NCBI RefSeq assembly: GCF_000383615.1
Contig: NZ_KB911583.1
Span: forward strand, 603,369-667,368
Direction of reading: 5' to 3'
Source of the DNA: Streptomyces canus 299MFChir4.1
GTDB lineage: Bacteria; Actinomycetota; Actinomycetes; Streptomycetales; Streptomycetaceae
Length of the DNA stretch: 64,000 bases
A program made the position numbers and the translations under genes. Positions 8,648 to 41,646 of this stretch are shown in pieces; the first letter of the stretch is position 1; each line of letters starts with the position of its first letter. The notes under the pieces are model-generated. The model made no database searches and was not told the origin of the DNA. It was given only the letters and a program-made list of their open reading frames with translations.

Positions 8648-9576
8648 GCCTCCTCCTTCTGCACATGGGTGAGCTTGTCGGGATTGCTCACGACGAAGAG
8701 GGCCGAGACCTGGTCGCCCTCCGGCGTGAGGTCCAGGACGATCACCGCGTACGGCGCGTCGTCCTGGAACAGCACGGCCGCGTCGTCGCCGTTGACCCGG
8801 CGGTAGCGCAGCTCCAGAGCGGGCGCCTGCGCCCCGGCCCCGCCCTGCCTCGCGCCCCGCTTCGCGTAACCGGTGAGCAGCCGTACGGCCTTGTCGCGGC
8901 CGTGCACCGGGCGCAGCGCCGAGGGTTTGCGGTTGCCGCCGCCGTCCGTCCACACCGTCACGTCCGGCGCGAGGATCTCCATCAACTCCGCGATGTTCCC
9001 GCCGAGGGCGGCCCGCACGAAACGTTCCGTCGCCTCCCGGCGGACCCGGGGGTGCGCCTCGTACAGCGGACGGCGGGCATGCACATGGGCCCGCGCGCGG
9101 TGCGCCAGCTGCCGTACGGCGGCCGGAGTGCGGTCCAGGATCCCGGCGATCTCGGTGTGGGCGTACCCGAACACCTCGTGCAGCACGAACACCGCGCGTT
9201 CCAGCGGGGACAGCGACTCCAGGACCACCAGCATCGCCAGCGACACGGACTCGGTCCGCAGCGCGGGGTCGTCGGCCCCGTCCTCATCGGCGACCAGGGG
9301 CTCGGGCAGCCAGGGGCCGACATAGGTCTCCCTGCGACGGCTGACCACGGCCCGCCGCTGGAGCGCGTGGTTGACGGCGATCCGGACCAGATAGGCACGG
9401 GGGTTGTCGATCCCGTCCGCCCCCCGGCGCGACCACGACAGCCAGGTGTCCTGGAGCACGTCCTCGGTGTCGGCGACGCTGCCCAGCATGTTGTAGACGA
9501 CACCGAACAACAGCTCCCGGTGTTCGACGAAGACACCGGTCGCCGCCTCGGCGTCGGGAACGGGGATCTCGGACAT
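8644..9576 (-). CDS. ECF41-family RNA polymerase sigma factor
   Basis: A 310-residue extracytoplasmic-function sigma factor with sigma-70 regions 2 (about 12-75) and 4 (about 110-165) and a C-terminal SnoaL-like extension. The extension carries the hallmarks of the ECF41 group: WLPEPL (89-94) in the linker, DGGGN (211-215) and NPDKL (298-302). In this group the extension acts as a built-in anti-sigma element, so no separate anti-sigma factor is needed. The ATG at 9576 is preceded by GGGAGG at 9 bases. The gene is first in an operon with the cytochrome b gene (4-base overlap). ECF41 genes are known to be autoregulated, usually next to a small oxidoreductase or decarboxylase; a cytochrome b neighbour is not the usual pattern. 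Confidence 0.93.
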   Translation of the reverse strand: MSEIPVPDAEAATGVFVEHRELLFGVVYNMLGSVADTEDVLQDTWLSWSRRGADGIDNPRAYLVRIAVNHALQRRAVVSRRRETYVGPWLPEPLVADEDGADDPALRTESVSLAMLVVLESLSPLERAVFVLHEVFGYAHTEIAGILDRTPAAVRQLAHRARAHVHARRPLYEAHPRVRREATERFVRAALGGNIAELMEILAPDVTVWTDGGGNRKPSALRPVHGRDKAVRLLTGYAKRGARQGGAGAQAPALELRYRRVNGDDAAVLFQDDAPYAVIVLDLTPEGDQVSALFVVSNPDKLTHVQKEEA

Positions 9577-19286: not shown

Positions 19287-20297
19287 TCAGGTGGTGGCGG
19301 TCGCGATACGCAGGGGCACCGGCTCGGGGGGAACGGCGCTCTCCTCGTTGCGGCGGGCGATCTCGGCCCACCAGGAGGGGCCGTCCTCGATGTGCCGCAG
19401 CAGAACCCCCTCGCGGATCGCCCAGGGGCAGATGGTGACGCTTCTGATCCCGGTGATTTTCATCGCCGTGTGCCCCACCACGGCACCTGCCAGGCTCTGT
19501 GCGGCGCGCGGGGCGGAGATGCCGGGCAGCTCGGCGCGCCGCGCGGCCGGGAGGGCGGCCAGGCGCTCGGCGGCCTCCCGCAGGTCGGCGCGGTGCATCC
19601 GGCGTTCCACGAAGGGTCCGCGCCGCCCGGGCGGGGTCCCGCACAGCCGCCCCAACTGCTCGAAGGTGCGTGAGGTGGCCACCGCGGTGCGCGGTCCCTC
19701 CCAGCGGATCCGTGACGCCACGTCCCGCAGTTGGTGGCGGACCTTGCGGCGCAGTGCCCGGATCGCCTCCGGGGGCGGTGGGTCCTCCCCCTCGAAGAAC
19801 TCGTGGGTGAGCCGTCCCGCGCCCAGCGGCAGCGAGGCGACGTAGTCAGGCAACCGCCCGCGTCCGAAGGCCACTTCGAGCGATCCGCCACCGATGTCGA
19901 ACAGCGCGAGCGGCCCCGCACGCCAGCCCATCCAGCGCCGGGCCCCCAGGAACGTGAGCTCCGCCTCCACCTCGCCCGGCAGGGTGTACAGCCCGATGCC
20001 GGTCCGGGTGCGCACGGTGCGCAGCACCTCCTGGCGGTTCGGCGCGGAGCGCACCACCGCGGTCGCGAAGGCCAGCGGCCCTGCCGCGCCCCATCTCGCG
20101 GCGGTCCGGCTCGCGCCTTCCACCGCCTCCACCAACTGTTCCACGGCCTTCTCGGGCACCGGGCCGCCCGGCCGCACATGATCGGCGAGTCTCAGCCGCC
20201 ACTTCGCGGTGTGCACCGGCAATGGCACCCCGTCCTCGGCGTCCGCCACCACCAGTCGCACCGTGTTCGAACCCACATCCACCACGCCTATCCGCAT
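19287..20297 (-). CDS. Ppx/GppA-family exopolyphosphatase
   Basis: A 336-residue actin-fold phosphatase that hydrolyses inorganic polyphosphate or guanosine pentaphosphate. The two nucleotide-binding motifs are visible: VGVVDVGSNTVRL-type phosphate 1 at the N terminus and LFDIGGGSLEVAF at about 140. It is single-domain, like the short actinobacterial Ppx forms. The ATG at 20297 begins MRIGVVDVGSNT. Streptomyces carry two or more such paralogs, so I do not assign a gene symbol. Confidence 0.88.
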   Translation of the reverse strand: MRIGVVDVGSNTVRLVVADAEDGVPLPVHTAKWRLRLADHVRPGGPVPEKAVEQLVEAVEGASRTAARWGAAGPLAFATAVVRSAPNRQEVLRTVRTRTGIGLYTLPGEVEAELTFLGARRWMGWRAGPLALFDIGGGSLEVAFGRGRLPDYVASLPLGAGRLTHEFFEGEDPPPPEAIRALRRKVRHQLRDVASRIRWEGPRTAVATSRTFEQLGRLCGTPPGRRGPFVERRMHRADLREAAERLAALPAARRAELPGISAPRAAQSLAGAVVGHTAMKITGIRSVTICPWAIREGVLLRHIEDGPSWWAEIARRNEESAVPPEPVPLRIATATT

Positions 20298-20423
20298 GGC
20301 TCTGTGGGTACCCACGAGGAACCCCTTCCAACGTCAGGCGATCTGACAGGGCGTCACTCTCGGCCACCGCGTGTCGACAGTACGTGGGAACGCGCTGCGG
20401 ACAGCGGTGGCAGTGGACAGAGA

Positions 20424-23033: not shown

Positions 23034-25847
23034 TCACGCCATCTGCCGCCGCACCAGCTCGTGCAGCCGCCCGCCCGTGTCCGCGAGAAGCTGCGCGGGC
23101 GGCCCCTGCTGGGCGACCTTGCCGTTCTCCATCACGATCACACGGTCGGCGTCCAGCACCGTGGACAGCCGGTGGGCGATGACGATCCGGGTGGCGTTGA
23201 GGGCCTTGGTGGACTCGATGACCGTGCGCTGGGTGTCGTTGTCCAGGGCGCTGGTCGCCTCGTCGAAGAAGAGGATCCGCGGCCGGCGGATCAACGCCTG
23301 GGCGATCATCAGCCGTTGACGCTGGCCGCCGGAGATCGCCCCGCTGCCCGAGACGATGGTGTGCAGCCCCATCGGCATCCGCTGGATGTCCTCCGCGAGC
23401 CCCGCCATCGCGGCCGCCGCCATCGCCTCCTCGGGCGTGTAGGGCTCGGTGCCGCAGATGACGTCCAGGATGGAGCCCGTGAAGGGCTGCGCGTGCTGGA
23501 GGACGACACCGCACTGCCGGCGCACCGCCGACTGGTCGAGGGCGGCCAGGTCCTGGCCGTCGTACAGGACACTCCCGGAGACCGGCCGGTCGAAGCCGAT
23601 CAGCAGCCTGAGCAGGGTCGACTTGCCGCAGCCACTCGGGCCGACGATCGCCACGAACTCGCCCGGCCGGATCTCGAAGGACACGTCGTCCAGGATCAGG
23701 GGGCCGTCGTCGGAGTAGCGGAACGAGAGCCTGCGGGCCTCCATCGCCCCGGTGAGGAGTCCCGGCCGGGTGCTCGCCGTGCGCACCTCCGGCTGTGCCT
23801 CCAGGACCGGCTTGATCTCCTCGAACAGCGGGAGCGCGGCCACCGCCGAGACGAAGGCGCCGGTGAGCTGGGTGACCGCGGTCAGCAGCATCGTCACCGA
23901 GGTGTTGAAGGTGAGGAACTCCGCCGCCGACATCGAGCCGCGCGCCGGACCCGCGAGCAGCATGAACATCAGCAGGGTGCACAGCGGGAGGTAGACCGAG
24001 CCCATCACCGAGGTGAGGTTCTTGATCCGGCCGACCTTCTGCTGGAGCTCGCGGCTGCGGGCGAACTCCGAGGCCCACGCCGCGTACGCGTAGTTCTCCG
24101 CCGCCGCCACCCGCAGCTTGGGCAGACCGCGCAGCGTCTGGAACGCCTGGTTGTTCAGCTTGTTGCTCAGCACGACCAGCCGCCGCTGCCAGCGCACCTG
24201 CCACAGCCCGAGGCCGAGGAACCCGGCCGCGATGACGACGAGCATGCCGATCGCCGCCATCGCCATCGGCACGCTGTACCAGAACAGCAGGCCCAGGTTC
24301 ATGGCGCCGACGGTCACCGACTGGGCGAGCGTCGGGCCGATGCCCGCCATCATCCTGCGGATCGAGCTGATCCCCATGGCCTGGCTGGCGAGTTCGCCGG
24401 TCGAGCGCTCGGTGAAGAACTTCGTCGGCAGTCTCAGCAGCCGGTCCCACACCGCGGGCTGGAGGGTCGCCTCGATACGGCCCTCCAGGCGCAGCATCGT
24501 GAGGTTCTGGAGCAGCATGAAGGCCGCCGTCACCACACCGCTGACCATCACGGCCAGACACACCTGCACGATCAGAGCGGTCTGTGCCCTGGGCACGAAC
24601 TCGCCGAGCACCTTGCCGGTCGCGATGGGCACCAGCGCGCCGATCGCCACCGTGACCAGACCGCTGAGCAGCAGGTTGGTCACATCGCCGCCGGTGCCGC
24701 GCATGCTGAACCGCAGCAGACCGAGGGGGCTCAACTTCCGGTCGGGCAGCGGGCGGTAGAACATCACCGCGCGCGGTTCGAACTCCTCCGCGTTGTCCTT
24801 CTCTATCGGTGTCTCACGGCCCGTCGCCGGATGGACGGCCACATAGCCGCCGCGCCGCCACAGCAGCGCGACCGGCGCGCCCGACAGGGCCCGGTGACCC
24901 ACCAGCGGGCCGATGTTGTCGCGCCACCAGCTGCCGTCCAGGCGTACGGACCTGATGCGGACGCGGGAGGCGAGGGCGATGCGCTCGACCGGGTCGAGGC
25001 GGTCGCTCTCGGTGCCGCTCTGGGCGTTCTCGGCGAGCGGGATCCCGGCCGCGTCGGCGACCAGCTTGCACGCCGCGTAGCTGGCGTCCGCGTCGGCCGC
25101 CGTCGCGCGCTGCTTGGACCTGCCGATGGACGCCAGCAGGGTCCGGTCGGCCTGGGCGCGCACCGCCTCACCGGCCTTGATACCGGCGGCCGTCCGGGTC
25201 TCGTGGGTGCGCTCCAACTGCTCGATCCAGCGGTCCAGCGTGGTGAGCAGCCGGTACTGCTGGTCGACCATGGACTGCCAGACCGCCGGGTCCATCAGCA
25301 GGTCGGCGGCCGCCTCGGCGCCGTAGAGCGAGCCGTACTGCACGCTGCCCGGCGGCACCTGCATCCAGAAGACGTCGTCATCGGTCGGGGCGGCGGCCCG
25401 CTCGTCGGCCATCGGCGCCTGGAAGAGGATCGACAGACTCCGGCCCACACCGAGGGCCAGGGCGTACTCCAGCGGGCTGGTCGTCGGCGGCACGTACTGG
25501 GGGTTGCCGTACTCGTCGTACGACCAGGTCTGGGTGTGCGCGGGCTCGTACAGTTCGCGCAGGCCGATGCGGTGGATCACGCAGTCCCGCAAGGGCCGTG
25601 CCACCAAGGTGTGTTGCGGGCCGGGTACCGGGCCGAGCAGCAGCGCGCCAGGCTCCAGGCGGCCGAGGTGGTGCCAGTGGCCCTGCTGTTCGGCGTCCAC
25701 CGCGAACAGGTCCACCGCGCCCGACACGACCAGCCACAGCACCTGCGGCCCTTCGAGGTCGATGCGGTTGAACCCCGCGCAGTCGATGCGCGTGCCCATC
25801 TGACCGAGGGAGGTGAGGACCACGTCCCCTTCGTATGCGGTAGTCAT
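23034..25847 (-). CDS. NHLM-type bacteriocin ABC transporter, ATP-binding subunit
   Basis: A 937-residue protein, the second ABC transporter of an NHLM-type peptide export system. An N-terminal regulatory domain of about 110 residues resembles a cyclic-nucleotide-type fold. A long helical linker, a six-helix ABC exporter domain (about 390-690) and a nucleotide-binding domain follow. The latter has Walker A GPSGCGKST (about 730), signature ISGGQRQRL and Walker B ILFFDEATSALD. There is no C39 peptidase domain, so leader cleavage is left to the partner encoded upstream. The start ATG (25847) is one base from the partner's stop codon, so the two are translationally coupled. The proteins probably form the export complex with the HlyD-like adaptor. 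Confidence 0.88.
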   Translation of the reverse strand: MTTAYEGDVVLTSLGQMGTRIDCAGFNRIDLEGPQVLWLVVSGAVDLFAVDAEQQGHWHHLGRLEPGALLLGPVPGPQHTLVARPLRDCVIHRIGLRELYEPAHTQTWSYDEYGNPQYVPPTTSPLEYALALGVGRSLSILFQAPMADERAAAPTDDDVFWMQVPPGSVQYGSLYGAEAAADLLMDPAVWQSMVDQQYRLLTTLDRWIEQLERTHETRTAAGIKAGEAVRAQADRTLLASIGRSKQRATAADADASYAACKLVADAAGIPLAENAQSGTESDRLDPVERIALASRVRIRSVRLDGSWWRDNIGPLVGHRALSGAPVALLWRRGGYVAVHPATGRETPIEKDNAEEFEPRAVMFYRPLPDRKLSPLGLLRFSMRGTGGDVTNLLLSGLVTVAIGALVPIATGKVLGEFVPRAQTALIVQVCLAVMVSGVVTAAFMLLQNLTMLRLEGRIEATLQPAVWDRLLRLPTKFFTERSTGELASQAMGISSIRRMMAGIGPTLAQSVTVGAMNLGLLFWYSVPMAMAAIGMLVVIAAGFLGLGLWQVRWQRRLVVLSNKLNNQAFQTLRGLPKLRVAAAENYAYAAWASEFARSRELQQKVGRIKNLTSVMGSVYLPLCTLLMFMLLAGPARGSMSAAEFLTFNTSVTMLLTAVTQLTGAFVSAVAALPLFEEIKPVLEAQPEVRTASTRPGLLTGAMEARRLSFRYSDDGPLILDDVSFEIRPGEFVAIVGPSGCGKSTLLRLLIGFDRPVSGSVLYDGQDLAALDQSAVRRQCGVVLQHAQPFTGSILDVICGTEPYTPEEAMAAAAMAGLAEDIQRMPMGLHTIVSGSGAISGGQRQRLMIAQALIRRPRILFFDEATSALDNDTQRTVIESTKALNATRIVIAHRLSTVLDADRVIVMENGKVAQQGPPAQLLADTGGRLHELVRRQMA

Positions 25848-25848
25848 C

Positions 25849-28071
25849 TCACCGTTCCTTGACCAGCGCCGCGTACGCGCCGTCGCGCGCCACCAGCTCC
25901 TCGTGCCGCCCGCGTTCCACGATCGTGCCGTGCTGGAGCACGACGATCTCGTCGCTGTCGCGCACGGTGCTGAGCCGGTGCGCGATCACCACACAGGCGC
26001 AGCCGCGCTTGCGCAGGTTGTCCATGACGACCTGCTCGGTCTCCGCGTCCAGCGCGCTGGTGACCTCGTCGAGGACCAGGATGCTGGGCCGGCGCACCAA
26101 CGCCCGCGCGATCTCCAGGCGTTGACGCTGACCGCCGGAGAAGTTGCGGCCGTCCTGCTCGACCCTGCTGTGGATGCCGCCGGGCCGCCGCATGACCACG
26201 TCGTACAGGGCCGCGTCCCGCAGCGCGTCCACCACGGCGTCGTCCGGGATCGACGGGTCCCACAGCGCCACGTTGTCGCGGACCGAGCCCTCGAAGAGGA
26301 AGACGTCCTGGTCCACGAAGGACACCGAGGCGGCGAGCGCGCCGCGCGGGATGTCGTCCAGGCGCCGTCCGTCGATGCGGATCACGCCCTCCCAGGGCGC
26401 GTAGAGCCCCGAGATCAGCCGGGACACGGTCGACTTGCCGCTGCCCGAGCCACCGACCAGCGCCACCTGCTGGCCCGGGCCCACGGTCAGGTCGAAGCCG
26501 GTGAGCAGCGGCTTGTCGAGCGGGTTGTAACCGAAGGTGATGTTCTGCAGCTCGACATGGCCGTGCAGGCGGCGGGTCGAGTCGCCGGCGCCGGGACGGC
26601 CGTAGAGGGGGTCGGCCTTGAAGTTCTCGACGTCCTTCAGGCGGGCCACGTCGGCCGCGAAGTCCTGGATGCGGCCCGCCACGCCGTTGAGGCGGGTGAT
26701 CGGCGCGGTGAAGCGGGTGACCAGGGCCTGGAAGGCGACCAGCAGGCCGACGGAGATGCCGCCCTCGATGGCCCGCATGCCGCCGATCCACAGGATGAGC
26801 GCGCTGTTGAAGGTGGCCAGCATCGGCGCGACCACGCCCAGCCAGGCGCTCGGCACCCCGAGCCGCTGCTGCTCCTCCAGCGTGGTGGCGTGCTGGCCCG
26901 CCCACTTGCGGAAGTAGCCGTCCTCGCCGCCGGTCGCCTTCATCGTCTCGATCAACTGAAGGCCGGTGTAAGCCGTGTTGGTGAGCCGGGCGCTGTCGGC
27001 ACGCAGCTTCGCGGTACGGGTGGAGCGCAGCCGGATGACGACCCGCATGGCCACCACGTTGAGCAGGGCCACACCGATGCCGACGTAGGTGAGCTGCGGG
27101 TCGTAGGTGTAGAGCAGGATCGCGTACAGGACGACGACCACCGCGTCGACGCCCGCCGCCGCGAGGTCGCGGGCCAGGGTCTCGGCCACCTGGTCGTTGG
27201 ACTGGAGGCGCTGGACCAGGTCGGCCGGGCTGCGCTGGGAGAAGAACGTCACCGGCAGACGCAGCAGGTGGCGCAGGAAGCGGGCGCTGGAGAGCGTCGA
27301 GGAGATGATGCGGCCGTGCAGCAGGTTCGCCTGCTGGAGCCAGGTCAGGGCGAGGGTGAGGGCCACGCAGGCCCCCATCGACGCGAACAGCACGCCGAGC
27401 AGCGAGGTCTGCCCGCCGATCAGGAACATGTCGATGTAGGTGCGGCTCAGCGCGGGAGTGGCCGCGCCGACCAGCACCAGCAGCAGGCTCGCGAGGACAG
27501 CCGCCGGCATGGTGCCCGCGGTGCCGCGCAGCCGGGCCGGCATCGCACCGAGGACACCCGGCTTGCGGCCGCCCCGGGTGAAGCCCTCGCCGGGCTCCAT
27601 CACCAGGACGACACCGGTGAAGCTGCCGTCGAAGTCCTCCATGGGGACGAAACGGCGGCCCTTGCCGGGGTCGTTGATGTAGACCCCGCGGCGGCCGAAG
27701 CGGCGGCCCATGCCGTCGTACACGACGTAGTGGTTGAACTCCCAGAACAGCACGGCCGGCGTCTTCACCTCGGCGAGCGCGGCCGTGTCCATCTGCATGC
27801 CCTTGGCCGTCAGGCCGTAACTGCGGGCTGCCTTGAGGAGGTTGCTGGCGCGCGAGCCGTCCCGGGAGACACCGCAGGCGATGCGCAGCTCCTCCAGCGG
27901 GACGTGCTTGCCGTAGTGGCCGAGGACCATCGCGAGGGACGCGGCGCCGCACTCCACGGCCTCCATCTGGAGGACGGTGGGCGTGCGGACCGTCTTCGCC
28001 TTCCCCGTGGGGACCGGCCGTTTGGGCGGGGCGGAGCGGCGCCTGCCGCGGGTGTCCTGTGCGGTGCTCAC
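25849..28071 (-). CDS. NHLM-type peptidase-containing ABC transporter (C39)
   Basis: A 740-residue PCAT-type exporter that cleaves double-glycine leaders and exports the peptide. The N-terminal C39 peptidase has catalytic C41 (EAVECGAASLAM), H114 (EFNHYVVYDG) and D134 (YINDPGKGRRF). A six-helix membrane domain and an ATPase domain follow, the latter with Walker A GGSGSGKST, signature FSGGQRQRLEIA and Walker B ILVLDEVTSALD. I chose the GTG at 28071; it overlaps the TGA of the HlyD-like gene as GTGA. Its expected substrate is the SGG-leader peptide encoded at 29045-29260. Confidence 0.92.
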   Translation of the reverse strand: MSTAQDTRGRRRSAPPKRPVPTGKAKTVRTPTVLQMEAVECGAASLAMVLGHYGKHVPLEELRIACGVSRDGSRASNLLKAARSYGLTAKGMQMDTAALAEVKTPAVLFWEFNHYVVYDGMGRRFGRRGVYINDPGKGRRFVPMEDFDGSFTGVVLVMEPGEGFTRGGRKPGVLGAMPARLRGTAGTMPAAVLASLLLVLVGAATPALSRTYIDMFLIGGQTSLLGVLFASMGACVALTLALTWLQQANLLHGRIISSTLSSARFLRHLLRLPVTFFSQRSPADLVQRLQSNDQVAETLARDLAAAGVDAVVVVLYAILLYTYDPQLTYVGIGVALLNVVAMRVVIRLRSTRTAKLRADSARLTNTAYTGLQLIETMKATGGEDGYFRKWAGQHATTLEEQQRLGVPSAWLGVVAPMLATFNSALILWIGGMRAIEGGISVGLLVAFQALVTRFTAPITRLNGVAGRIQDFAADVARLKDVENFKADPLYGRPGAGDSTRRLHGHVELQNITFGYNPLDKPLLTGFDLTVGPGQQVALVGGSGSGKSTVSRLISGLYAPWEGVIRIDGRRLDDIPRGALAASVSFVDQDVFLFEGSVRDNVALWDPSIPDDAVVDALRDAALYDVVMRRPGGIHSRVEQDGRNFSGGQRQRLEIARALVRRPSILVLDEVTSALDAETEQVVMDNLRKRGCACVVIAHRLSTVRDSDEIVVLQHGTIVERGRHEELVARDGAYAALVKER

Positions 28072-28874
28072 GGCAGCAGCCAATCGACGGGGCGCTGATC
28101 GGCCAGCCGGATCGAACCCGAGGCCACGGTCATGGAGGTGAGGGCGAAGGGAGGACCGTCCGCGGACGACCACCGGTAACCGCTCTTCGTGCCCCTCGAC
28201 TTGTCCAGCTTCACCAGGACCGCGACGGGACGGCCGTCCTTGGTGAACTGCTCACCGAGCTGGCTGTCCCCGAGGAAGGCGGCGATCTGCTGGGCCGACT
28301 GGGCCGAGCGGTCCACCGACTTCACATGGCCGCGCAGCACCCCGTACTCCTGGGTGGGCACCGAGGAGACGGTGAGGTCCACGGCCGCGTCGTCCGGTAT
28401 GGAGGCCGCGTTCTCGGCGGGCACGTACACCGTGGCGTACAACGGATCGGAGGCGTGGGCGACCTTCTCCACCGCGGCGACGTTCGCTCCGGTCGAGATG
28501 ATCTGACCGATGGTGGCCGCGAGGGCGGTGACCCGGCCGGCCGCCACCGTTCGGACGACGGTGTCGCCCTGCGACGTACGGACCTTCAGCACCGGGGAGT
28601 CGGCGGGCAACTGCTGACCCTCCTTGGCGATCACCTGGGTGACCTGGCCCGCGACCGGGCTCTGCAGGATGTAACTGCCCTGCCCGTGCGTGAGGATGGC
28701 GGGCGCGCTCACCGTGGAGGCCACCGAGCCGGTCACCGCCCACACGGACGCGGCGGCCATCACGACCACCGTCACGGACATCACGAGCCAGCCCTGCGGG
28801 CGGGCGAAGCGCACCGGAAGGTCGAGCTCCTCCGGTGACTGGAGCTTGGCGAGGGCCTGTTGGCGGAACTGCAC
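28068..28874 (-). CDS. HlyD-like adaptor of the NHLM export system
   Basis: A 268-residue membrane-fusion protein with an N-terminal transmembrane helix (about 29-49) and a periplasmic-type lipoyl/barrel-sandwich domain (GQVTQVIAKEGQQLPADSPV near 85). In monoderms such proteins bridge the ABC exporter and the cell wall. It starts at a GTG (28874) with GAGGGAAG upstream and is coupled to the next gene. The order precursor, adaptor, peptidase-ABC, ABC is the canonical NHLM set, without a modification enzyme. Confidence 0.85.
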   Translation of the reverse strand: MQFRQQALAKLQSPEELDLPVRFARPQGWLVMSVTVVVMAAASVWAVTGSVASTVSAPAILTHGQGSYILQSPVAGQVTQVIAKEGQQLPADSPVLKVRTSQGDTVVRTVAAGRVTALAATIGQIISTGANVAAVEKVAHASDPLYATVYVPAENAASIPDDAAVDLTVSSVPTQEYGVLRGHVKSVDRSAQSAQQIAAFLGDSQLGEQFTKDGRPVAVLVKLDKSRGTKSGYRWSSADGPPFALTSMTVASGSIRLADQRPVDWLLP

Positions 28875-28971
28875 GGTCTTCCCTCACCTGCGAAAGCGTG
28901 CGAATTGCTACGCATGCTGCCAATGACAAAGGACCGGCTCGCGAAAGCCGGCCGGACTACGACACCCAAGA

Positions 28972-29003
28972 GTCCCGGAACCGCCGGTTTGCGGCTCCGG
29001 GAC
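28972..29003 (-). terminator. Intercistronic attenuator hairpin after the precursor gene
   Basis: GTCCCGGA pairs perfectly with TCCGGGAC, with an inner CCGC/GCGG stem, 42 bases after the precursor stop codon and before the adaptor gene. Partial termination here would give an excess of precursor mRNA over exporter mRNA, as is usual in peptide operons. Confidence 0.6.
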
Positions 29004-29044
29004 GGGTCGACCACAAGACAGTGATCAGATCACGAAGAATGTGA

Positions 29045-29260
29045 TCAGAGACCGGCGACCAGGCCGGTGACCGGGGCGGTGTTCAGGCCGGTGACACCCT
29101 CGACCGTGCCGACGACCGTGTTGACCAGGCCGGAAACCGGGGCAACGCCGTCCACCAGGCCGGTGACGGTGCCGAGGGCGTTCAGCTGCAGGCCGCCGGA
29201 GACGTTGTCGAGGTCGGCGTCCGAGATCTCGACGGTCTCAACCTGGGGGGTGGAGTTCAT
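29045..29260 (-). CDS. Double-glycine leader peptide precursor with V(T/S)GL repeats
   Basis: A 71-residue peptide. The leader (about 1-23) ends in the acidic-helix motif ISDADLDNVSGG, a textbook C39 cleavage site. The predicted mature 48-residue part starts LQLNALGTVTG and contains four copies of a V(T/S)GL(V/N) unit separated by short Gly/Ala/Pro spacers. It has no cysteine and almost no charge, so it cannot form lanthionine rings. The ATG at 29260 is preceded by AAGGGAAG. The three export genes follow. Similar peptides are annotated in databases as type A2 lantipeptides, but the absence of cysteines argues against that. An adhesive, structural or pore-forming surface peptide is conjecture. 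Confidence 0.8.
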   Translation of the reverse strand: MNSTPQVETVEISDADLDNVSGGLQLNALGTVTGLVDGVAPVSGLVNTVVGTVEGVTGLNTAPVTGLVAGL

Positions 29261-29709
29261 GATGGAACTTCCCTTCGTATGGGTATTTCACAAGGGGGGA
29301 GCGGCCCCCTCTGGGGACAGGGACGGCCGCAATCGCATGGCGCCGGATCCCGTTTCCGGGAAACCCAACGGCCCTGCGGTGCGATGGATCAAAGCACGCT
29401 GCGGCTCCGCCCTTCCAATTAACCAGCGGTCTCACCAGGGCACTTGAGTCATAGAAGCCTCCATCCGTGCAGGCGTGTGCACGCCTTGGTGCCGACTTCT
29501 TCACATGTGGCGTTACGGCGGCGTGAAGCGGCCCTTGTTGTCGTCGTGGCGAATGCGACACACCTCGCCAATGGCATGGGTGCGGATCCGCGCATGTGCA
29601 GAACTCCCGCTCGCGGTGACTTGGTTGCGCATTCGATGTGCAGATTCACTGAAGGGGGGATTCGAGGCGGTGTTCGCAACGGACCGCTGTCGACCGATTG
29701 CTGAGCGTG
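29261..29709. other. Gene-free stretch upstream of the peptide operon
   Basis: About 450 bases of lower coding bias between the precursor start and the thioesterase stop. I see no supported gene; it should contain the promoter of the precursor operon, reading to the left, but no clear -35/-10 pair could be picked. Confidence 0.5.
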
Positions 29710-30123: not shown

Positions 30124-30313
30124 ATGGGGGATTGTTCCCGCCCGCCGCCGGCCCGGCACATCCGGTGGCCGAATCGGTGTGGCAATCGGCGCGTAAAGAA
30201 ACGGCATTGAACGCCCCGCGCACACCGTGCGTACCCATGGCCATCCAGGCGCCCCGAACAACCGACTGCCGTACGGCGGTTACAGACTCCGGTCCCCCAG
30301 GAGGTCGAGAAGT

Positions 30314-31696
30314 TTGAGTCACAAGCGAATTCCGAAGCGCAAGGCCGCATTCGCGGCAGGCACCGTGGTGGCGCTCGGCGCCGCCGCGATTCTGCTGCCC
30401 AACGCCAACGCGTCCCAGGACGGCTCGTCGAACGACGCGGCGGCCATCGCGCCGAAGACTCTGAAGGCGACGGACGCCTCGGACCTCGCCTCGCAGCTCC
30501 AGAAGGCGCTGGGTGACGCCTTCGCCGGCTCCTACTACGACGCCGACAGCCGGCAGCTCGTCGTGAACGTCATATCCGGCGACAGCAACGTCGTCGTCCA
30601 GGCGAAGAAGGCCGGCGCCAAGGTCCGCGAGGTCGACAACAGCCTCACCGAACTGGCGGCCGGGGCGAAGACCCTGAAAGAAGAGGCCACCATCCCGGGC
30701 ACCGCCTGGGCCGTGGACCCGCGCACCAACAAGATCCTGGTGACCGCCGACAGCACGGTCACCGGCGACAGGTGGAACACCCTCGAGTCGACCGTGAAGA
30801 GCCTCGGCTCCGGCATGGCGACCGTGAAGAAGTCGGCCGGCACCTTCAAGACCTTCGTGTCCGGCGGTGACGCCATCTTCGGCGGCGGCGCCCGCTGCTC
30901 GCTCGGCTTCAACGTCACCGCGGGCGACGGCAGCCCCGCCTTCCTGACCGCCGGTCACTGCGGGGTCGCGGCCGAGCAGTGGTCGGACACCCAGGACGGC
31001 CAGCCGATCGCCACCGTCGACCAGGCCACCTTCCCCGGCGACGGCGACTTCGCCCTGGTCAAGTACGACGACCCGGCGACCCAGGCACCGAGTGAGGTCA
31101 ACGTCGGCGGCGGCCAGACGGTCGCGATCAGCCAGGCGGCGGACGCCGAGGTCGGCCTCCAGGTCTTCCGGATGGGCAGCACCACGGGCCTCGCCGACGG
31201 CCAGGTCCTCGGACTCGACGCCACCGTGAACTACCCCGAGGGCACCGTCACCGGCCTCATCCAGACCGACGTCTGCGCCGAGCCCGGTGACAGCGGCGGC
31301 TCGCTGTTCACGCAGGACGGCTCGGCGATCGGCCTGACCTCCGGTGGCAGCGGCGACTGCACGGTCGGCGGCGAGACCTTCTTCCAGCCGGTCACCACCG
31401 CCCTCCAGGCGGTCGGCGCCACGCTCGGCGCGGGTGACGCGGCAGGCGGCGCGGGCGACCAGGCCGGTGCCGGTGCCGGTGCCGGTGACGAGGCGGGCGC
31501 CGGTGGCGACGCCGGGGCCGGTGCGGGCGATCAGGCCGGTGCCGGTGGCGACGCCAGTGCGAGCCCCGGTGACGAGGCCGGCGCGGGTCAGGAAGTCGGC
31601 GGCGACCAGGCCGGCGGTGACGTGATCGGCGGCGAGGAGGCCGGAAACGGCGCCGGCGATGCCACGGGCGACGCCGCGGGCCAGTCGCACAACTGA
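30314..31696 (+). CDS. Streptogrisin-like serine protease with Gly/Ala/Asp repeat tail
   Basis: A secreted 460-residue S1-family protease that starts at TTG (30314), nine bases after a perfect AGGAGG. Domains: signal peptide (1-33), alpha-lytic-type propeptide (about 45-181), catalytic domain (about 182-370) with the triad H215 (LTAGHC), D245 (GDGDFALVKYD) and S327 (EPGDSGGSL), and an unusual tail (371-460) rich in Gly, Ala, Asp and Glu built from irregular GAGD(Q/E)AGAG units. The mature enzyme should start near VSGGDAIFGG, which aligns with IAGGEAI of streptogrisin A. Related enzymes often carry a chitin-binding domain instead; here no such domain is present. The SSI-type inhibitor at 16500 could be its partner. 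Three hairpins follow the gene. Confidence 0.92.
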   Translation: MSHKRIPKRKAAFAAGTVVALGAAAILLPNANASQDGSSNDAAAIAPKTLKATDASDLASQLQKALGDAFAGSYYDADSRQLVVNVISGDSNVVVQAKKAGAKVREVDNSLTELAAGAKTLKEEATIPGTAWAVDPRTNKILVTADSTVTGDRWNTLESTVKSLGSGMATVKKSAGTFKTFVSGGDAIFGGGARCSLGFNVTAGDGSPAFLTAGHCGVAAEQWSDTQDGQPIATVDQATFPGDGDFALVKYDDPATQAPSEVNVGGGQTVAISQAADAEVGLQVFRMGSTTGLADGQVLGLDATVNYPEGTVTGLIQTDVCAEPGDSGGSLFTQDGSAIGLTSGGSGDCTVGGETFFQPVTTALQAVGATLGAGDAAGGAGDQAGAGAGAGDEAGAGGDAGAGAGDQAGAGGDASASPGDEAGAGQEVGGDQAGGDVIGGEEAGNGAGDATGDAAGQSHN

Positions 31697-34034: not shown

Positions 34035-34390
34035 GCCGACCACCTCCTCGCACGGGCGCGGCGCGGAAGGAGCGCGGGCCGCTGTCGCGTGCCGGGCCCC
34101 CAGGGATCAAATCTCCTCCCTTACGGCGCGTCCCGCACGGCGAGCGTTCCCGGGTGCGGGCACACGGGTACCCACGCGACGGCGAGGACGGGCGTGTACC
34201 CCCTCGGCCCCGGACCATGCCCCCACAGTCGAAGCGCGCCACGGCACATGGGCGCCGCTTGTGCGCCCCCGCGCACCCTGTTGGCCAATTCTTCGCGCCC
34301 GAGGTCGGTCCGGGACCCGAACAATGGGGCACGCGTTTCATGCCCACGGAACCGAGCGAGCCGAGTACGGCGAATCAAGGGGGACGAACA

Positions 34391-35002
34391 GTGATCCGGG
34401 TGCTTCTGGTGCACGACGCGTGTCTGGTGAGATCGGCCCTGGCGGAGTGGCTCCGCCGGGAACCCGATCTCGGGGTGTTCGACACCCCGTGGCACAGCGC
34501 ACCCGGCCGTCTGCGGACCGTGCGGCCCGACGTGTGCGCGGCGGACCTCGAATGCTCGGACGCGTACGGCGTCCCGCCGCTGGGGGAGTTAGCCGTGCGC
34601 GAGTCGGACCGCGGTACGCCGCGCCTGCTCGTGATGGCCAGCGCCAACCGGCCGGGTCTGCTGAAGCGGGCCGTCGAGGCGGGGGCGCTCGGGTACGTGG
34701 ACAAGGAGGGGGCGGCGCCGGAGCGGCTGGTGCGCGGAATCCGTCGGGTCGCCGAGGGGAAACGTTTCGTCGACGACTCGCTGGGCTTCGGCTTCCTCCA
34801 GGCCGCGGAGATGCCGCTGACCAGACGGGAGCTGAGCGTGTTATCCCTCGCGGCCGAGGGGGCCTCCATCGCGGAGATCGCCCGGAACCTGTGCCTGTCG
34901 CACGGGACCGTGCGCAACTACATGGCCGCGATCACCCGCAAGACCGGGGCCCGCAACCGCATCGACGCGATCCGGATCTCCCAGGGGCAGGGCTGGCTCT
35001 GA
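34391..35002 (+). CDS. ramR: RamR/AmfR-like orphan response regulator (TTA-containing)
   Basis: A 203-residue NarL/LuxR-type response regulator that should activate the ram operon. The N-terminal receiver (1-120) has D9, the phosphoacceptor position D52 and K105, but the usual acidic pair is HD rather than DD, so phosphorylation may be dispensable, as for RamR. The C-terminal helix-turn-helix (about 140-200) reads LTRRELSVL through SHGTVRNYMAAI. No sensor kinase is adjacent. Codons 67 (34589-34591) and 151 (34841-34843) are TTA, so translation should need the bldA tRNA. TGGCCAATTC at 34282-34291 matches nine of ten positions of the AdpA consensus. The start is the GTG at 34391 after GGGGGA. 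The last 162 bases overlap the 3' end of ramB on the other strand. Confidence 0.88.
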   Translation: MIRVLLVHDACLVRSALAEWLRREPDLGVFDTPWHSAPGRLRTVRPDVCAADLECSDAYGVPPLGELAVRESDRGTPRLLVMASANRPGLLKRAVEAGALGYVDKEGAAPERLVRGIRRVAEGKRFVDDSLGFGFLQAAEMPLTRRELSVLSLAAEGASIAEIARNLCLSHGTVRNYMAAITRKTGARNRIDAIRISQGQGWL

Positions 35003-36976
35003 CCGCTTCGGGGGTACGGCGCTCCAGCCGCCCACGAGTTCGCGGTAGGCGGGCGAGTCGCGCACCAGCTCGTCGTGGGTGCCGTACGCCGTGCGCGAGC
35101 CGTCCATCAGCAGCACGCGGCCGGCACGGCGGGCCGAGCTGATCCGGTGGGCGACGACCACCAGCGTGGTGCCGGGCCGGTTGGCGAAGGCCCGCTCGGC
35201 GCGCTCCTCGGCCGGGGGGTCCAGATGACAGGTGGCCTCGTCGAGCAGGACGAGTGGGGCGTACGACAGATAGGCCCGGGTCAGCGCCACGAGCTGCCGC
35301 TCACCGGCGGACAGGGCGGCCGGGTCGACGCTCGCCTGCGGCCCGCCGAGCGCTTCGAGGAGCGGGGCCAGCCCGACGGCCTCCGCCGCCGCGAGCAGCT
35401 CCGGCTCGGGCACCGGGTCCATGCGCAGGTGCCCGAGGTTCTCGGCGAGGGTGCCGGTGTGGACGTACGCCTCCTGCGGAATGAGCACGCGCAGGGCGGC
35501 CGCGTCGGGGGAGGGCACGGGGTGTCCGCACAGCCGGATGCTTCCGCCGGTGGGCCGAAGGAGACCGGCGACCAGAGCGGTGAGCGTGGACTTCCCGATG
35601 CCGCTGGGGCCTACGACGGCAAGGTGGGCGCCGGCCGGCAGGGCGAGGTCGAGGTGGTCGACGACGGGGGTGGCGGCGGGGCCGTAGGCGAAGGAGACGG
35701 CGGTGAGGGAGAGGGCGGGGGCTCGGTCTGCCGGGCGGGGGGCGGTGCCGGGCCGGGCGTCGGCACCGGCGGGGCGGGTGCCGGGGCCGTGGTCCGTCGG
35801 CCCCGCGGGGGTGTGGGGGGTGAGGCGGTGGCCTGCTGCCCCGGCGTGCCGGTCAGCGGGCTGCGCGTCCGTGCGGTCGCCGGGCAGCGCGGGAGCCGGC
35901 GGGTGGGCGGCCATGCCGGGGGCCGCCGGGTAGGTGCCGTCGTCGTCCGGGCCGGGAGTGCCCGTGCGGCTGGGCAGGGGAGGGGCACCATGGGGTTCCC
36001 TCCGTACGACCTGCCCGCCCGCGGCCGGAGCGGTTGCGGGCTCGCGGACCAGTCGCCGCAGCACCACCACCAGCCGGGAGCCGCTCGTGCCCAGGCCGTG
36101 GACGAGGTTGCGCAGGGCGGGGAGGAGGGACTGGGTGACGTAGGCGAGGGCGCCGACCAGGGCGCCCGTGGTGACCCCGCGGGCCAGGAGCCAGGGAGCG
36201 CAGGCGAGGAGGAGGACGATCGGGAGCTGGCCGCCGAGGGCGAGGGAGGCCACGCGCAGGACGGACCAGCGGGCGAGGGAGTACGCCGCCCGCTGTTCGG
36301 TGTCGACTAGTCGGCCCGTGTCGCCGGCGACCCGGGCCTCCGCACCGGCCGCCGTGATGTCCCGCAGCCCCGGGCAGACCCTGCCGAGACCGTCCGCCAG
36401 CGCCTCGTCGGCGACGAGGAACTCCTCCTGGCGGCGGGCCAGCGGACGCAACGTGGCCGCGAACAGGCCCAGTCCGGCGGCGAGCGGCGGCAGCACGACC
36501 AGCAGGAGCCGCGGGTCGAGCGAGGCCAGTCCGACCACCGCGCCGACGGCCGTGAACACGAACGAGCGCGACACCATCACCAGCCCGGCGAACGTGTCCC
36601 GGGCGATCTCCACCTGCTGGGTCAGCCCGGACAGCGCCCCCGCGTCCGCCTCCCGCACCCCGCGCTCCACGACCCGCCCGACCAGGACGTCCCGGAGCGG
36701 CTCGACCAACGCGGCGACGCCGGCGTACACCCGCACCGTTCCGAACGCGCCCACCAGCACGCCGATCCCGGCCACCCCGAGCCACCCGAGTCCGACGCCG
36801 GGCCGCCCGGCAAGGAACCCCTCGTCCAGGGCACGGGCGGGCGCGTACCCGGTGAGGAAGGTCTGTCCGGTCTCCAGCACGGACCACCCGCCGAGGCGGA
36901 CGAGGACCCGCCACCGGGCCCGCAGGTAGCGCAGACCGCGCCCGTACATCCCGCCGTGTGCCGAGCCGTCGCTCAC
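34841..36976 (-). CDS. ramB: RamB-like ABC exporter with long internal linker
   Basis: A 711-residue half-transporter with an N-terminal six-helix membrane domain (about 20-320) and a C-terminal ATPase domain (about 445-650) with Walker A GPSGIGKST, signature LSAGERQLVAL and Walker B LVLLDEATCHLD. A Pro/Gly/His/Ala-rich linker of about 115 residues separates the two, much longer than in typical ABC exporters. The GTG start at 36976 overlaps the ramA stop codon as GTGA. The C-terminal tail beyond VGGWSAVPP has no counterpart I know and is read antisense to ramR; the TAA stop is the complement of a ramR TTA codon. With RamA it should form the heterodimeric exporter of the lanthipeptide. Confidence 0.85.
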   Translation of the reverse strand: MSDGSAHGGMYGRGLRYLRARWRVLVRLGGWSVLETGQTFLTGYAPARALDEGFLAGRPGVGLGWLGVAGIGVLVGAFGTVRVYAGVAALVEPLRDVLVGRVVERGVREADAGALSGLTQQVEIARDTFAGLVMVSRSFVFTAVGAVVGLASLDPRLLLVVLPPLAAGLGLFAATLRPLARRQEEFLVADEALADGLGRVCPGLRDITAAGAEARVAGDTGRLVDTEQRAAYSLARWSVLRVASLALGGQLPIVLLLACAPWLLARGVTTGALVGALAYVTQSLLPALRNLVHGLGTSGSRLVVVLRRLVREPATAPAAGGQVVRREPHGAPPLPSRTGTPGPDDDGTYPAAPGMAAHPPAPALPGDRTDAQPADRHAGAAGHRLTPHTPAGPTDHGPGTRPAGADARPGTAPRPADRAPALSLTAVSFAYGPAATPVVDHLDLALPAGAHLAVVGPSGIGKSTLTALVAGLLRPTGGSIRLCGHPVPSPDAAALRVLIPQEAYVHTGTLAENLGHLRMDPVPEPELLAAAEAVGLAPLLEALGGPQASVDPAALSAGERQLVALTRAYLSYAPLVLLDEATCHLDPPAEERAERAFANRPGTTLVVVAHRISSARRAGRVLLMDGSRTAYGTHDELVRDSPAYRELVGGWSAVPPKRSEPALPLGDPDRVDAVAGPGLAGDRGHVVAHGPVRQAQVPGDLRDGGPLGREG

Positions 36977-38685
36977 GCCGGCCCCCCGTCCGCGGCGTCC
37001 TCCCCGCCCCCGAACACCGCCCGGTACTCGGGCAGCCGCCACAGCTCCTCGTGCGGTCCCACCGCCCGCACCCGCCCCCCGTCCAGCCAGGCCACCGCGT
37101 CCGCGCGGGCCGCCGTGGCGGTGCGGTGGGCGACGAGCAGGCGGGTGCCGCCCGCCCCGCCGCTCACCAGGGCGTCGGCGATGCGCGCCTCCGTGACCGT
37201 GTCGAGGCTGGAGAGGGCGTCGTCGAGGATGAGCAGCCGGCCGCCGTGGGCGAACGCCCGGGCGAGACCGAGCCGTTGGGACTCCCCGCCGGAGCGCGGG
37301 GCGTCGGCGACGAGGGTGTCGTAACCGCTGGGCAGGCGGCGCACGAAGTCGTCCGCACGGGCCGTGCGGGCGGCCTCCCGGACGCGGGCGGGGGCGGGGG
37401 AAGGGAGGGCGAGGCCGATCTCCTCCTCGACGGTGCCACCGAGCAGGGCGGGGCGTTCGAAGGCGTAGCCGATCGAGCGGCGCAGCTCGTCGTGGGCGAG
37501 CTCGCGCAGCGGCACCCCGTCGAGCAGGACCTCCCCGGCATCCGGTTCGACGAGTCGCCCGGCGACCGCGGCGAGCAGCGACTTGCCCGCCCCCGAGCGG
37601 CCCACCACCGCGAGGGTCGTCCCGCCCGGTACGACGAGGTCGACCCCGTCGAGCACCGCACGCGCGCCGCGCAGGGCGGTGACGCCCCGCAGTTCGAGGC
37701 GCCCGGGCCCGGGCGGCAGCCCGCGCTCGCCGTGCCGGACGGCCGGTTCCGCGAGGACCTCGTCCAGCCGGCCGGCCGCCGCCCGGGCCCGGGCCAGGCC
37801 GGACAGCTGTCCCACCAGGACGCCGACGCCGGTGGCGAGGACCGCGTACCGGGAGGCGGCGAGGACCTCGCCCACGGTGATGCGGTGCCGGGCGAGCAGG
37901 ACCCCGGCCACGGCGAGGACCCCGAGCTGGAGCAGCGGGGCCACGGCGACGGACTGGCCCGAGGCCCGGCCCTGCACCCGCCACATGCGGTGACCGGCCT
38001 CGGACAGCTCGGGCAGCGGGCGCAGGATGCGGGCCGTCTCCCGGTCCTCCGTCCCCGCGGCCCGGATGGTGCGGTGTCCGCCGACGGCCTCCGAGAGGGC
38101 CTGCGCGATCCGCCCCTGCACCTCCTGGTAGCGCGTCACGCATTCCCGGGTGTCCCGGGCGAAGGCGCGCAGCAGCAGGGCGAGCACCGGTGCTCCGGCC
38201 AGGAACACGGCCGCGAGCCAGGGGGAGACGAGACCGAGGGCCACCACGGCGCCCACCGGTCCGGCGAGCGCGGCGAGCAGGGCGGCGCGGGCGGTCGGTG
38301 CCGTGCCGGCCTGTGCGGCGTTGCCGACCAGGCGGGCGACGAGGTCTCCGGGCCCGAAGCGGGCGGTGGCGCGCGGGCCGACGGCCAGGACGTGAGCGGT
38401 GAGGCGGCGGCGCAGCCAGGCGGTGGTGCGGGCGTCGAGGGTGCCGCCGAGGACGGTCTCCGCGGCGTCGAGCAGCGCGAGCAGCAGAACCAGTCCGGCG
38501 CACCACAGGACCCAGCGGGTCGCCGGCGCCTGCGCCAGCAGCAGGTCCAGGGTGCGGCCGAGGGCCGCGGGCAGCAGCAGTCCGGCGCCGGTCGCCGCCG
38601 TGCTCGCCAGACACAGGAGCACACAGCGGGCGGGGGCCGGACCCAGGAGGCCGTGCGGGGCCGGAGGCGAGGTGCGAGTCGTCAT
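36973..38685 (-). CDS. ramA: RamA-like ABC exporter
   Basis: A 570-residue half-transporter: membrane domain (about 15-310) and ATPase domain (about 335-560) with Walker A GRSGAGKSL, a signature altered to SGGESQRLGLA and Walker B LLILDDALSSLD. The D-loop-adjacent acidic residue is aspartate rather than glutamate (LDDALSS), so this site may be catalytically weak, a known feature of one half of asymmetric ABC pairs. The ATG at 38685 has GGAAGG upstream. It follows ramS after an 88-base gap that contains a hairpin and is coupled to ramB. Confidence 0.88.
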   Translation of the reverse strand: MTTRTSPPAPHGLLGPAPARCVLLCLASTAATGAGLLLPAALGRTLDLLLAQAPATRWVLWCAGLVLLLALLDAAETVLGGTLDARTTAWLRRRLTAHVLAVGPRATARFGPGDLVARLVGNAAQAGTAPTARAALLAALAGPVGAVVALGLVSPWLAAVFLAGAPVLALLLRAFARDTRECVTRYQEVQGRIAQALSEAVGGHRTIRAAGTEDRETARILRPLPELSEAGHRMWRVQGRASGQSVAVAPLLQLGVLAVAGVLLARHRITVGEVLAASRYAVLATGVGVLVGQLSGLARARAAAGRLDEVLAEPAVRHGERGLPPGPGRLELRGVTALRGARAVLDGVDLVVPGGTTLAVVGRSGAGKSLLAAVAGRLVEPDAGEVLLDGVPLRELAHDELRRSIGYAFERPALLGGTVEEEIGLALPSPAPARVREAARTARADDFVRRLPSGYDTLVADAPRSGGESQRLGLARAFAHGGRLLILDDALSSLDTVTEARIADALVSGGAGGTRLLVAHRTATAARADAVAWLDGGRVRAVGPHEELWRLPEYRAVFGGGEDAADGGPA

Positions 38686-38714
38686 ACGGCGGCCTTCCGG
38701 AGGTGTGCAGAACC

Positions 38715-38751
38715 CCGGGCGGTCCCTCCCTCGCGGGAATGGACCGCCCGG
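38715..38751 (-). terminator. Attenuator hairpin between ramS and ramA
   Basis: CCGGGCGGTCC pairs perfectly with its complement across a 15-base interval that itself holds a TCCC/GGGA stem. It is placed 22 bases after the ramS stop codon, where partial termination would favour ramC-ramS transcripts over the transporter genes. Confidence 0.65.
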
Positions 38752-38773
38752 AGTCATGGGCGCACGATGCCTG

Positions 38774-38890
38774 TCAGAGACAGAGCGTGACGCTCGCGGC
38801 GCTGACGCAGGACAGCAGGCTCAGGGTGCTGTTGCCGCCACCGCCGGTGTGCTCGTCGGACTCCATCGTCTGCAGGTCGAGAAGTGCCAT
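38774..38890 (-). CDS. ramS: RamS/AmfS-like class III lanthipeptide precursor
   Basis: A 38-residue precursor, too short for routine gene callers. The leader has the conserved LanKC-recognition motif LLDLQTME (3-10). The core region (from about TGGGGNS at 15) carries two copies of the SxxSxxxC motif: S21-S24-C28 and S30-S33-C37, each able to form a labionin or lanthionine ring, the same topology as SapB. The ATG at 38890 is preceded by GGAAAGGAAACCGAG. It lies 59 bases downstream of the synthetase gene and 88 upstream of the exporter genes, the canonical ramCSAB order. The product should be a surfactant-like peptide helping aerial hyphae to emerge, by analogy with SapB; ring chemistry is inferred. 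Confidence 0.93.
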   Translation of the reverse strand: MALLDLQTMESDEHTGGGGNSTLSLLSCVSAASVTLCL

Positions 38891-38949
38891 CTCGGTTTCC
38901 TTTCCTCGGTGTCGTCCACCCGTGGGGACAGGGTTGGGTCACGGCTCCG

Positions 38950-41577: not shown

Positions 41578-41646
41578 GCGTCCCCCTTCTTGGCCCGCCA
41601 CAGAGCCTTCCAGCGAGGCGGTGGCCACGGACAGTCACGGCTGTCA

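Follow-up and report, generated by a model that had tools for sequence, protein, structure and literature searches.

Operons that export small peptides with a double-glycine (GG) leader have several described counterparts, against which we compare one such operon here. It lies in a 64,000-nucleotide (nt) stretch of Streptomyces canus 299MFChir4.1, hereafter the window (contig NZ_KB911583.1, positions 603,369 to 667,368; G000:C2:603369-667368 in our numbering), taken from an assembly of 116 contigs and 10.48 Mb. Judged by gene order, the operon is S. coelicolor SCO0753-SCO0756, in which SCO0755 would be the C39-ABC gene. In a strain whose growth is dispersed because of an activating Sco5282 allele, no gene is reported to be more overexpressed than SCO0753 (>60-fold), the SCO0753-SCO0756 operon is almost silent in the null mutant, and the cysteine-free, hydrophobic SCO0753 peptide has been proposed to alter the hyphal surface (PMC6629963). 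Elsewhere, SCO0753 appears as a bacteriocin gene (PMC5733086, where it is up-regulated in an aor1 deletion, and PMC6414726), and sco0756 is among the efflux genes up-regulated in a ppm1 mutant (PMC5882110); published lists already class the locus as bacteriocin or lanthipeptide-like. In another Streptomyces, a ‘type A2 lantipeptide’ gene has been reported from a region that also includes a Peptidase_C39 (PMC13047742) and may or may not be the present operon.

The likeness to SCO0753-SCO0756 extends beyond the precursor-HlyD-ABC-ABC order to a cysteine-free hydrophobic peptide and an exopolyphosphatase gene downstream (PMC6629963); in the window, an exopolyphosphatase (Ppx/GppA) gene at 19287-20315, separated from the operon by three genes, also fits the order SCO0753-SCO0757. 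The reported SCO0753 product differs in length, at 77 amino acids (aa) against 71 aa here (PMC6629963), and the precursor of S. violaceoruber NRRL S-981 (locus L062) is 88.7% identical to that of the window. A sequence-only reading of the window had ranked the operon as a candidate undescribed system; taken literally, this is rejected, because SCO0753-SCO0756, with the same gene order, and the surface-peptide idea are already published (PMC6629963). That reading missed the more interesting part, namely the dispersed orphan precursors that have the same leader and the same upstream element. The passages available from PMC6629963 make no mention of orphan precursors, a shared element or export in trans, and a limited keyword search of the literature found no dispersed precursor family with a shared element. 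The operon is known in part; the dispersed leader family with its shared upstream element looks new.

The closest working analogue appears to be EbfG1-4/PteB of Synechococcus elongatus, in the sense of a system that would work alike rather than of family membership. There, a C39 peptidase-transporter is required for several small proteins with a GG motif to be secreted efficiently; these proteins work in the matrix of the biofilm, and some of them form amyloid (PMC4997328, PMC9981879); the ebfG genes are clustered and promote biofilm, whereas here the extra precursors are mostly scattered singly and the linked condition is dispersed growth. A likeness also exists to the three-gene NHLM/NHLP cassette, with TIGR03796 and TIGR03797 matched over their cut-offs, a TIGR03794-type adaptor, and several precursors per cassette described in some genomes (Haft et al. 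2010, PMC2887384). Here, however, the leader matched no nitrile-hydratase-like (NHLP) or Nif11-like model of NCBIfam at an expectation value (E) of 0.1 or better, the adaptor is shorter and below its cut-off, and no maturase is encoded alongside. Small hydrophobic surface peptides of Streptomyces also include SapB (RamS), which is a class III lanthipeptide produced by RamC, and the chaplins, which are secreted through the Sec pathway. The window has a SapB-type cluster linked to the operon, whereas its GG precursor had no Pfam match at E 0.1. Compared with the classes used in print, the operon has neither the core cysteine nor the adjacent synthetase of a lanthipeptide (‘type A2’); it has the GG leader and C39-ABC exporter of a class II bacteriocin, with a core free of Lys/Arg and hence not cationic. 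A cationic core is usual, not universal, among class II bacteriocins.

We favor, with a probability of roughly 60%, the reading that the operon exports a small, hydrophobic, unmodified peptide and that its exporter is a shared outlet for dispersed, co-regulated peptides, likewise unmodified, mostly cysteine-free and rich in Gly/Val/Ala, that act on the hyphal surface. At its core, a widespread Streptomyces operon probably cuts and exports a small hydrophobic peptide. The broader proposal is more tentative, and we rate it at somewhat less than an even chance: a Streptomycetaceae regulon in which one exporter and many unlinked GG peptides with unrelated cores, under one promoter-type element, would form a variable hyphal coat that tunes aggregation. 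In the mechanism that we propose, TTGG-N15/16-CGTGCTTTGATC would induce the precursor gene of the operon jointly with most of the orphans, and a stem-loop 3' of the precursor would let the precursor outnumber the exporter. Every leader would be removed behind its Gly-Gly by the C39 domain, and the core, rich in Gly/Val/Ala/Thr, would leave the cell through ABC1 and ABC2 together with the shortened HlyD adaptor. The exported core would then act at the hyphal surface or matrix, altering hyphal adhesion, rather than as an antibiotic.

The complete four-gene GG export operon described in the sequence-only reading is borne out: all four genes lie at 23034-29260 on the minus strand (Table 1). A search with the second ABC protein returned 491 relatives, the nearest named ones being Streptomyces (98% identity across this protein), and our counts for named loci refer to the best 80 of the 491. 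Adaptor and C39-ABC genes are present in 80/80 and the precursor in 79/80, the sole locus without it (L053) being on a contig that starts inside hlyD; this retention shows that the arrangement is not chance. The C39-ABC protein scores 1019.5 bits against TIGR03796 (cut-off 853.3) and E 4.5e-35 against PF03412, with Q69, C75, H148 and D168 of the C39 domain kept in all 80 named relatives. The second ABC protein reaches 894.1 bits against TIGR03797 (cut-off 709.4), and the adaptor 146.1 bits against TIGR03794, below the cut-off of 156.2, aligning to model positions 1-82 and 253-417 and leaving about 170 central positions unmatched. By these matches, the export genes are an NHLM-type cassette. 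The C39-ABC gene probably starts at the GTG at 28071, which overlaps the adaptor stop by 4 nt, and not at the GTG at 28173; the ATG of the second ABC gene begins 1 nt past the C39-ABC stop, and from this overlap and spacing the three export genes look coupled.

In the precursor, SGG occupies residues 21-23 and is followed by a 48-residue core. The description of this peptide as cysteine-free and almost uncharged was accurate: the core lacks Cys, Lys and Arg, has a single Asp and a single Glu, and is acidic, with a grand average of hydropathy of 1.05, a computed average mass of 4515.2 (unmodified), seven Thr, one Ser and four GxxxG pairs. Cys is absent from all 129 operon-linked precursors examined, and no enzyme for ribosomally synthesized and post-translationally modified peptides (RiPPs) is a near-universal neighbor. 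Both results agree with the earlier preference for an unmodified surface-type peptide over an antibiotic.

Both leader and exporter were traced through 150 congener genomes. The leader profile A1 (23 positions, built from 37 sequences; cut-off E 0.01 in congeners) had hits in 108/150, and the exporter, sought independently through the N-terminus of the second ABC protein, was found in 108/150 and not in 42/150; the two occur together in 107. The single leader-only genome (G001, 79% complete) has a contig that stops 85 nt past the precursor, where an exporter could not be seen, and in the single exporter-only genome (G120) the contig starts near the start of the C39-ABC gene. The full-length operon precursor is recognizable in 86/150 congener species at E 1e-10 or better. 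Across Streptomycetaceae, leader hits at E 1e-6 or better occur in 154/297 genomes, spread over 8 of the 17 genera. Among 20 leader-bearing loci from five other genera, 13 combine precursor, hlyD, abc1 and abc2, one (L281) has an exporter with a precursor missed by the pattern, and six are orphans. A phylum-wide exporter search found 11 of 396 genomes, all Streptomyces, and understates the range, because other Streptomycetaceae genera carry the exporter.

Leader genes distant from the exporter, which we term orphans, number at least 47 in 38 genomes. An orphan was defined as a leader hit away from the exporter whose fetched stretch, in some cases short where a contig ends, has no hlyD, abc1 or abc2 match; four (L166, L173, L174 and L194) were missed by the pattern and added by hand, and the total is a lower bound, since it excludes the second leader hits of 11 congener genomes. 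In S. coeruleorubidus ATCC 13740 (G539:C1), leader hits at 7037668-7037736 and 5480834-5480902 stand apart from the operon leader at 8603031-8603099. The exporter is present in 37 of the 38 orphan-bearing genomes. Orphans thereby occur in 37/108 exporter-positive against 1/42 exporter-negative genomes (Fisher p 1.5e-5, uncorrected for shared ancestry), and the exporter is present in every one of the 49 genomes that have more than one leader hit (compared by hand). Single-linkage clustering divides the orphan cores into seven groups; the cores are 42-56 aa long, consist to 66% of G/A/S/T/V, average 0.43 Lys/Arg per core, and differ in group between genomes. Most orphan genes carry a GAAGGGAA-like ribosome-binding site (RBS).

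Operon and orphans are further joined by a rare element, CGTGCTTTGATC, at a usual distance of 50-170 nt upstream of the ATG. Exact operon copies were found in 74/79 named loci, 23/30 close congeners and 12/20 divergent congeners; among the 47 orphans, it is exact in 21, with one mismatch in 13 and two in 7. At no more than one mismatch, it precedes 34/47 orphans as opposed to 2/475 other upstream regions of the same loci. Genome scans recovered 30 exact copies in 20 exporter-positive genomes, 15 of them chosen for having orphans, and 29 of these copies precede a leader gene (matched by hand), whereas 15 exporter-negative genomes held 2 exact copies and the reversed pattern, as a control, matched 3 times across all 35. 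A TTGG-like box stands 15 nt before CGTGCTTTGATC in the orphan alignment (45/47 upstream regions) and 16 nt before it in the operon; of the 8 matches that a wider two-box pattern had in 10 genomes, 7 stand before leader genes (matched by hand), and the operon of the window, with its 16-nt spacer, is absent from the 8.

The roughly 400 nt 5' of the precursor (window ~29261-29660) are strongly conserved and hold repeated TCTGCACA-like words among other blocks, which suggests several regulator sites; 19 of 79 regions were left out of the operon intergenic comparison. On the other side, 3' of the precursor stop, 24 sequences (the window and 23 loci) share an 11-pair stem-loop consensus in which 2 of 11 pairs have changed on both sides. 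It has no clear T-run, and may serve in partial termination or in RNA stabilization.

Table 1. Features of the export operon, its flanks and the separate SapB-type cluster, in window coordinates
Feature	Position	Strand	Basis or remark
Double-glycine precursor, 71 aa	29045..29260	-	Leader profile A1, 63.7 bits, E 2.5e-16; orthologues in 79/80 named loci
Precursor leader, residues 1-23	29192-29260	-	
Precursor core, residues 24-71	29048-29191	-	
HlyD-like adaptor, 268 aa	28068..28874	-	TIGR03794 match
C39 peptidase-ABC transporter, NHLM ABC1 type	25849..28071 (open reading frame extends to 28173)	-	TIGR03796, PF03412
Second ABC transporter without peptidase, NHLM ABC2 type	23034..25847	-	TIGR03797; N-terminal region without known fold
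CGTGCTTTGATC element, putative promoter or regulator site	29387..29398	-	Common to operon and orphan precursors
TTGG box, possible -35-like half	29415..29418	-	Orphan upstream alignment; operon spacing read by eye
Stem-loop GTCCCGGAGCCG...CGGTTCCGGGAC, possible partial terminator or RNA stabilizer	28972..29003	-	3' of precursor stop
Alpha-lytic-type serine protease, divergent conserved neighbor	30227..31696	+	Not claimed as part of the exporter
SapB-type (ram/amf) cluster, separate	34154-41628		RamC ~10 kb upstream of operon
RamC-like class III lanthionine synthetase	38950-41628		SapB-type cluster
Small RamS-like open reading frame	38774-38890		Named by eye
ABC transporter of SapB-type cluster	36973-38757		
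LuxR regulator of SapB-type cluster	34154-35002		

No modification enzyme gene was found in the operon itself, as the sequence-only reading had held, and the neighbors of homologous precursors, which it had named as the place to look, were surveyed in 100 loci (80 named, 20 congeners) by gene calling and clustering; of the 32 non-operon clusters with five or more members, 20 were scanned through one representative each. No typical RiPP enzyme appeared among these 20 clusters or in nearly all loci, nor was an immunity-like protein or receptor gene seen in them. The conserved neighbors are the alpha-lytic-type protease (79 of 100 loci; 74/75 named loci with at least 6 kb of upstream sequence), a SpoIIE/GAF/PAS phosphatase (76) and a subtilisin inhibitor (68). 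Beyond the 3' end of the operon, a haem-oxygenase-like redox protein (49), an FMN dehydrogenase (48) and a small-domain methyltransferase (46) occur in too few loci to be required. Ppx/GppA (43), MFS (41), AHSA1, ArsR, STAS and other proteins likewise occur in 50 or fewer loci. A search of 180 neighborhoods with the window's RamC and the one standalone LanC-like protein of its genome returned no LanC match and RamC fragments in one. Among the orphans, ten neighbors were scanned (8 of 29 recurrent groups and 2 single), giving a sigma factor, YceI, an acyltransferase, MFS, an Rhs/T7SS-type protein, a SpoIIE phosphatase and others, with no typical RiPP enzyme among the ten.

These neighborhoods bear on the alternatives. 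In one, the peptide is a class II-like unmodified bacteriocin whose hydrophobic, glycine-rich core inserts into the membranes of rivals, with the orphans as further bacteriocins; we consider this unlikely. The C39/HlyD/ABC cassette and GG leader are of bacteriocin type, the four GxxxG pairs and the variation of orphan core groups between genomes fit, and the gene is so listed in PMC5733086 and PMC6414726, but the core is acidic and without Lys/Arg, the scanned conserved neighbors include no immunity-like protein, and a precursor in 86/150 congener species is more widespread than expected for one antibiotic. Modification in trans by an enzyme encoded elsewhere (a dehydratase or the SapB enzyme RamC), which would make the peptide a RiPP, is distinctly unlikely. 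None of the 129 operon precursors offers a Cys for lanthionine, and the scanned neighbor clusters hold no typical RiPP enzyme; the source genome does encode a LanC-like protein and a RamC, and the core has seven Thr and one Ser. RamC itself points both ways, since it lies ~10 kb away here and is full-length within ~20 kb upstream in 7/20 genomes, yet in that interval is absent from 10 and reduced to fragments in 3.

GG peptides are often pheromones, and the mature peptides might accordingly be signals sensed by a kinase or receptor. We find this improbable, as no receptor gene stands among the scanned conserved neighbors and the orphan cores are long, rich in Gly/Ala/Ser/Thr/Val and divided into several unrelated groups. 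Very improbable, finally, is a view of the orphans as gene copies in decay, with the shared element merely the inherited promoter of a duplicated gene. Duplication could pass on both leader and element, and the exporter is absent from 42/150 genomes; against decay, the seven core groups retain open frames, cores of 42-56 aa and the leader, most have the RBS, and some recur beside the same neighbors in different species.

Several points weigh against our preferred reading of an exporter shared by dispersed surface peptides. That the peptide is cleaved and exported, that orphans leave through the exporter in trans, that the products are unmodified and act at the surface, and what the stem-loop does are all inferred. 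Many genes contribute to the change in morphology described in PMC6629963, and no SCO0753 deletion phenotype was found in the passages available from that paper. The element has three or four mismatches in 6/47 orphans and in 13/19 precursors of other genera, where 4/19 show none or one; one exact copy (G049:C1:373069) does not stand before a leader gene, 15 of the 20 scanned exporter-positive genomes were selected for their orphans, and the co-occurrence statistic is uncorrected for shared ancestry. Cys occurs in 8/47 orphan cores, including the one Cys of the window genome's own orphan (G000:C4:358156-358224), and among the 21 unscanned orphan-neighbor groups one (4 loci) is methyltransferase-like and one FAD oxidoreductase-like by eye. 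For the precursor, AlphaFold gives an uninformative model (predicted local distance difference test, pLDDT, 57). Lastly, across 74 loci (two of 79 precursors, of 70 aa, having been omitted from the initial divergence set), the nonsynonymous divergence (dN) of the core, 0.144, exceeds that of the adaptor, 0.088, and its ratio to synonymous divergence (dS) is 0.61 for the core, 0.45 for the leader and 0.24 for the adaptor. The core is therefore constrained and not unusually conserved, which weakens arguments from conservation alone; exceptional core conservation, considered as an argument against an antibiotic, was rejected because the core changes faster than the adaptor. Synonymous divergence in the leader (0.11) and core (0.24; dS 0.238) is below that of the adaptor (0.37), which suggests the codon constraint of a highly expressed gene.

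Should the regulon exist, the locus would belong to a pathway for surface peptides that spans the genus and includes many small genes so far overlooked, and not to a bacteriocin or lanthipeptide cluster; it would be comparable in working to the cyanobacterial EbfG system, and could help explain pelleted versus dispersed growth, a matter relevant to the industrial fermentation of Streptomyces. Through the shared element, RNA data that already exist could put this idea to a direct test.

A LuxR match, as in the SapB-type cluster of the window, is linked to the operon in 48/75 named relatives, and the survey of RamC in 20 genomes, which covered ~20 kb upstream of the operon, suggests its repeated loss beside a stable operon. 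In the second ABC protein, residues 20-100 of the N-terminal 390 (window 24678-25847) look beta-rich. A profile search of this N-terminus against PDB sequences gave one hit at chance level (E 0.56), and its AlphaFold model was poor (mean pLDDT 45).

Some orphan loci have features of their own. Four orphans of one core group (L149, L185, L188 and L189) are directly followed by a same-strand gene, which in L185, the one member scanned, encodes a sigma-70 region 2/4 factor, and carry the variant element CGTG[CT]TTACATC. Seven others (L168, L173, L174, L176, L178, L191 and L194) adjoin a small conserved open reading frame of unassigned family, and four loci of this set share a large neighbor that in L174, where it was scanned, is of Rhs/T7SS-signal/WXG100 type. 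In locus L155 of genome G145 (8344-9191), two tandem GG precursors with different cores stand before one exporter, which again points to a single exporter serving several cargoes.

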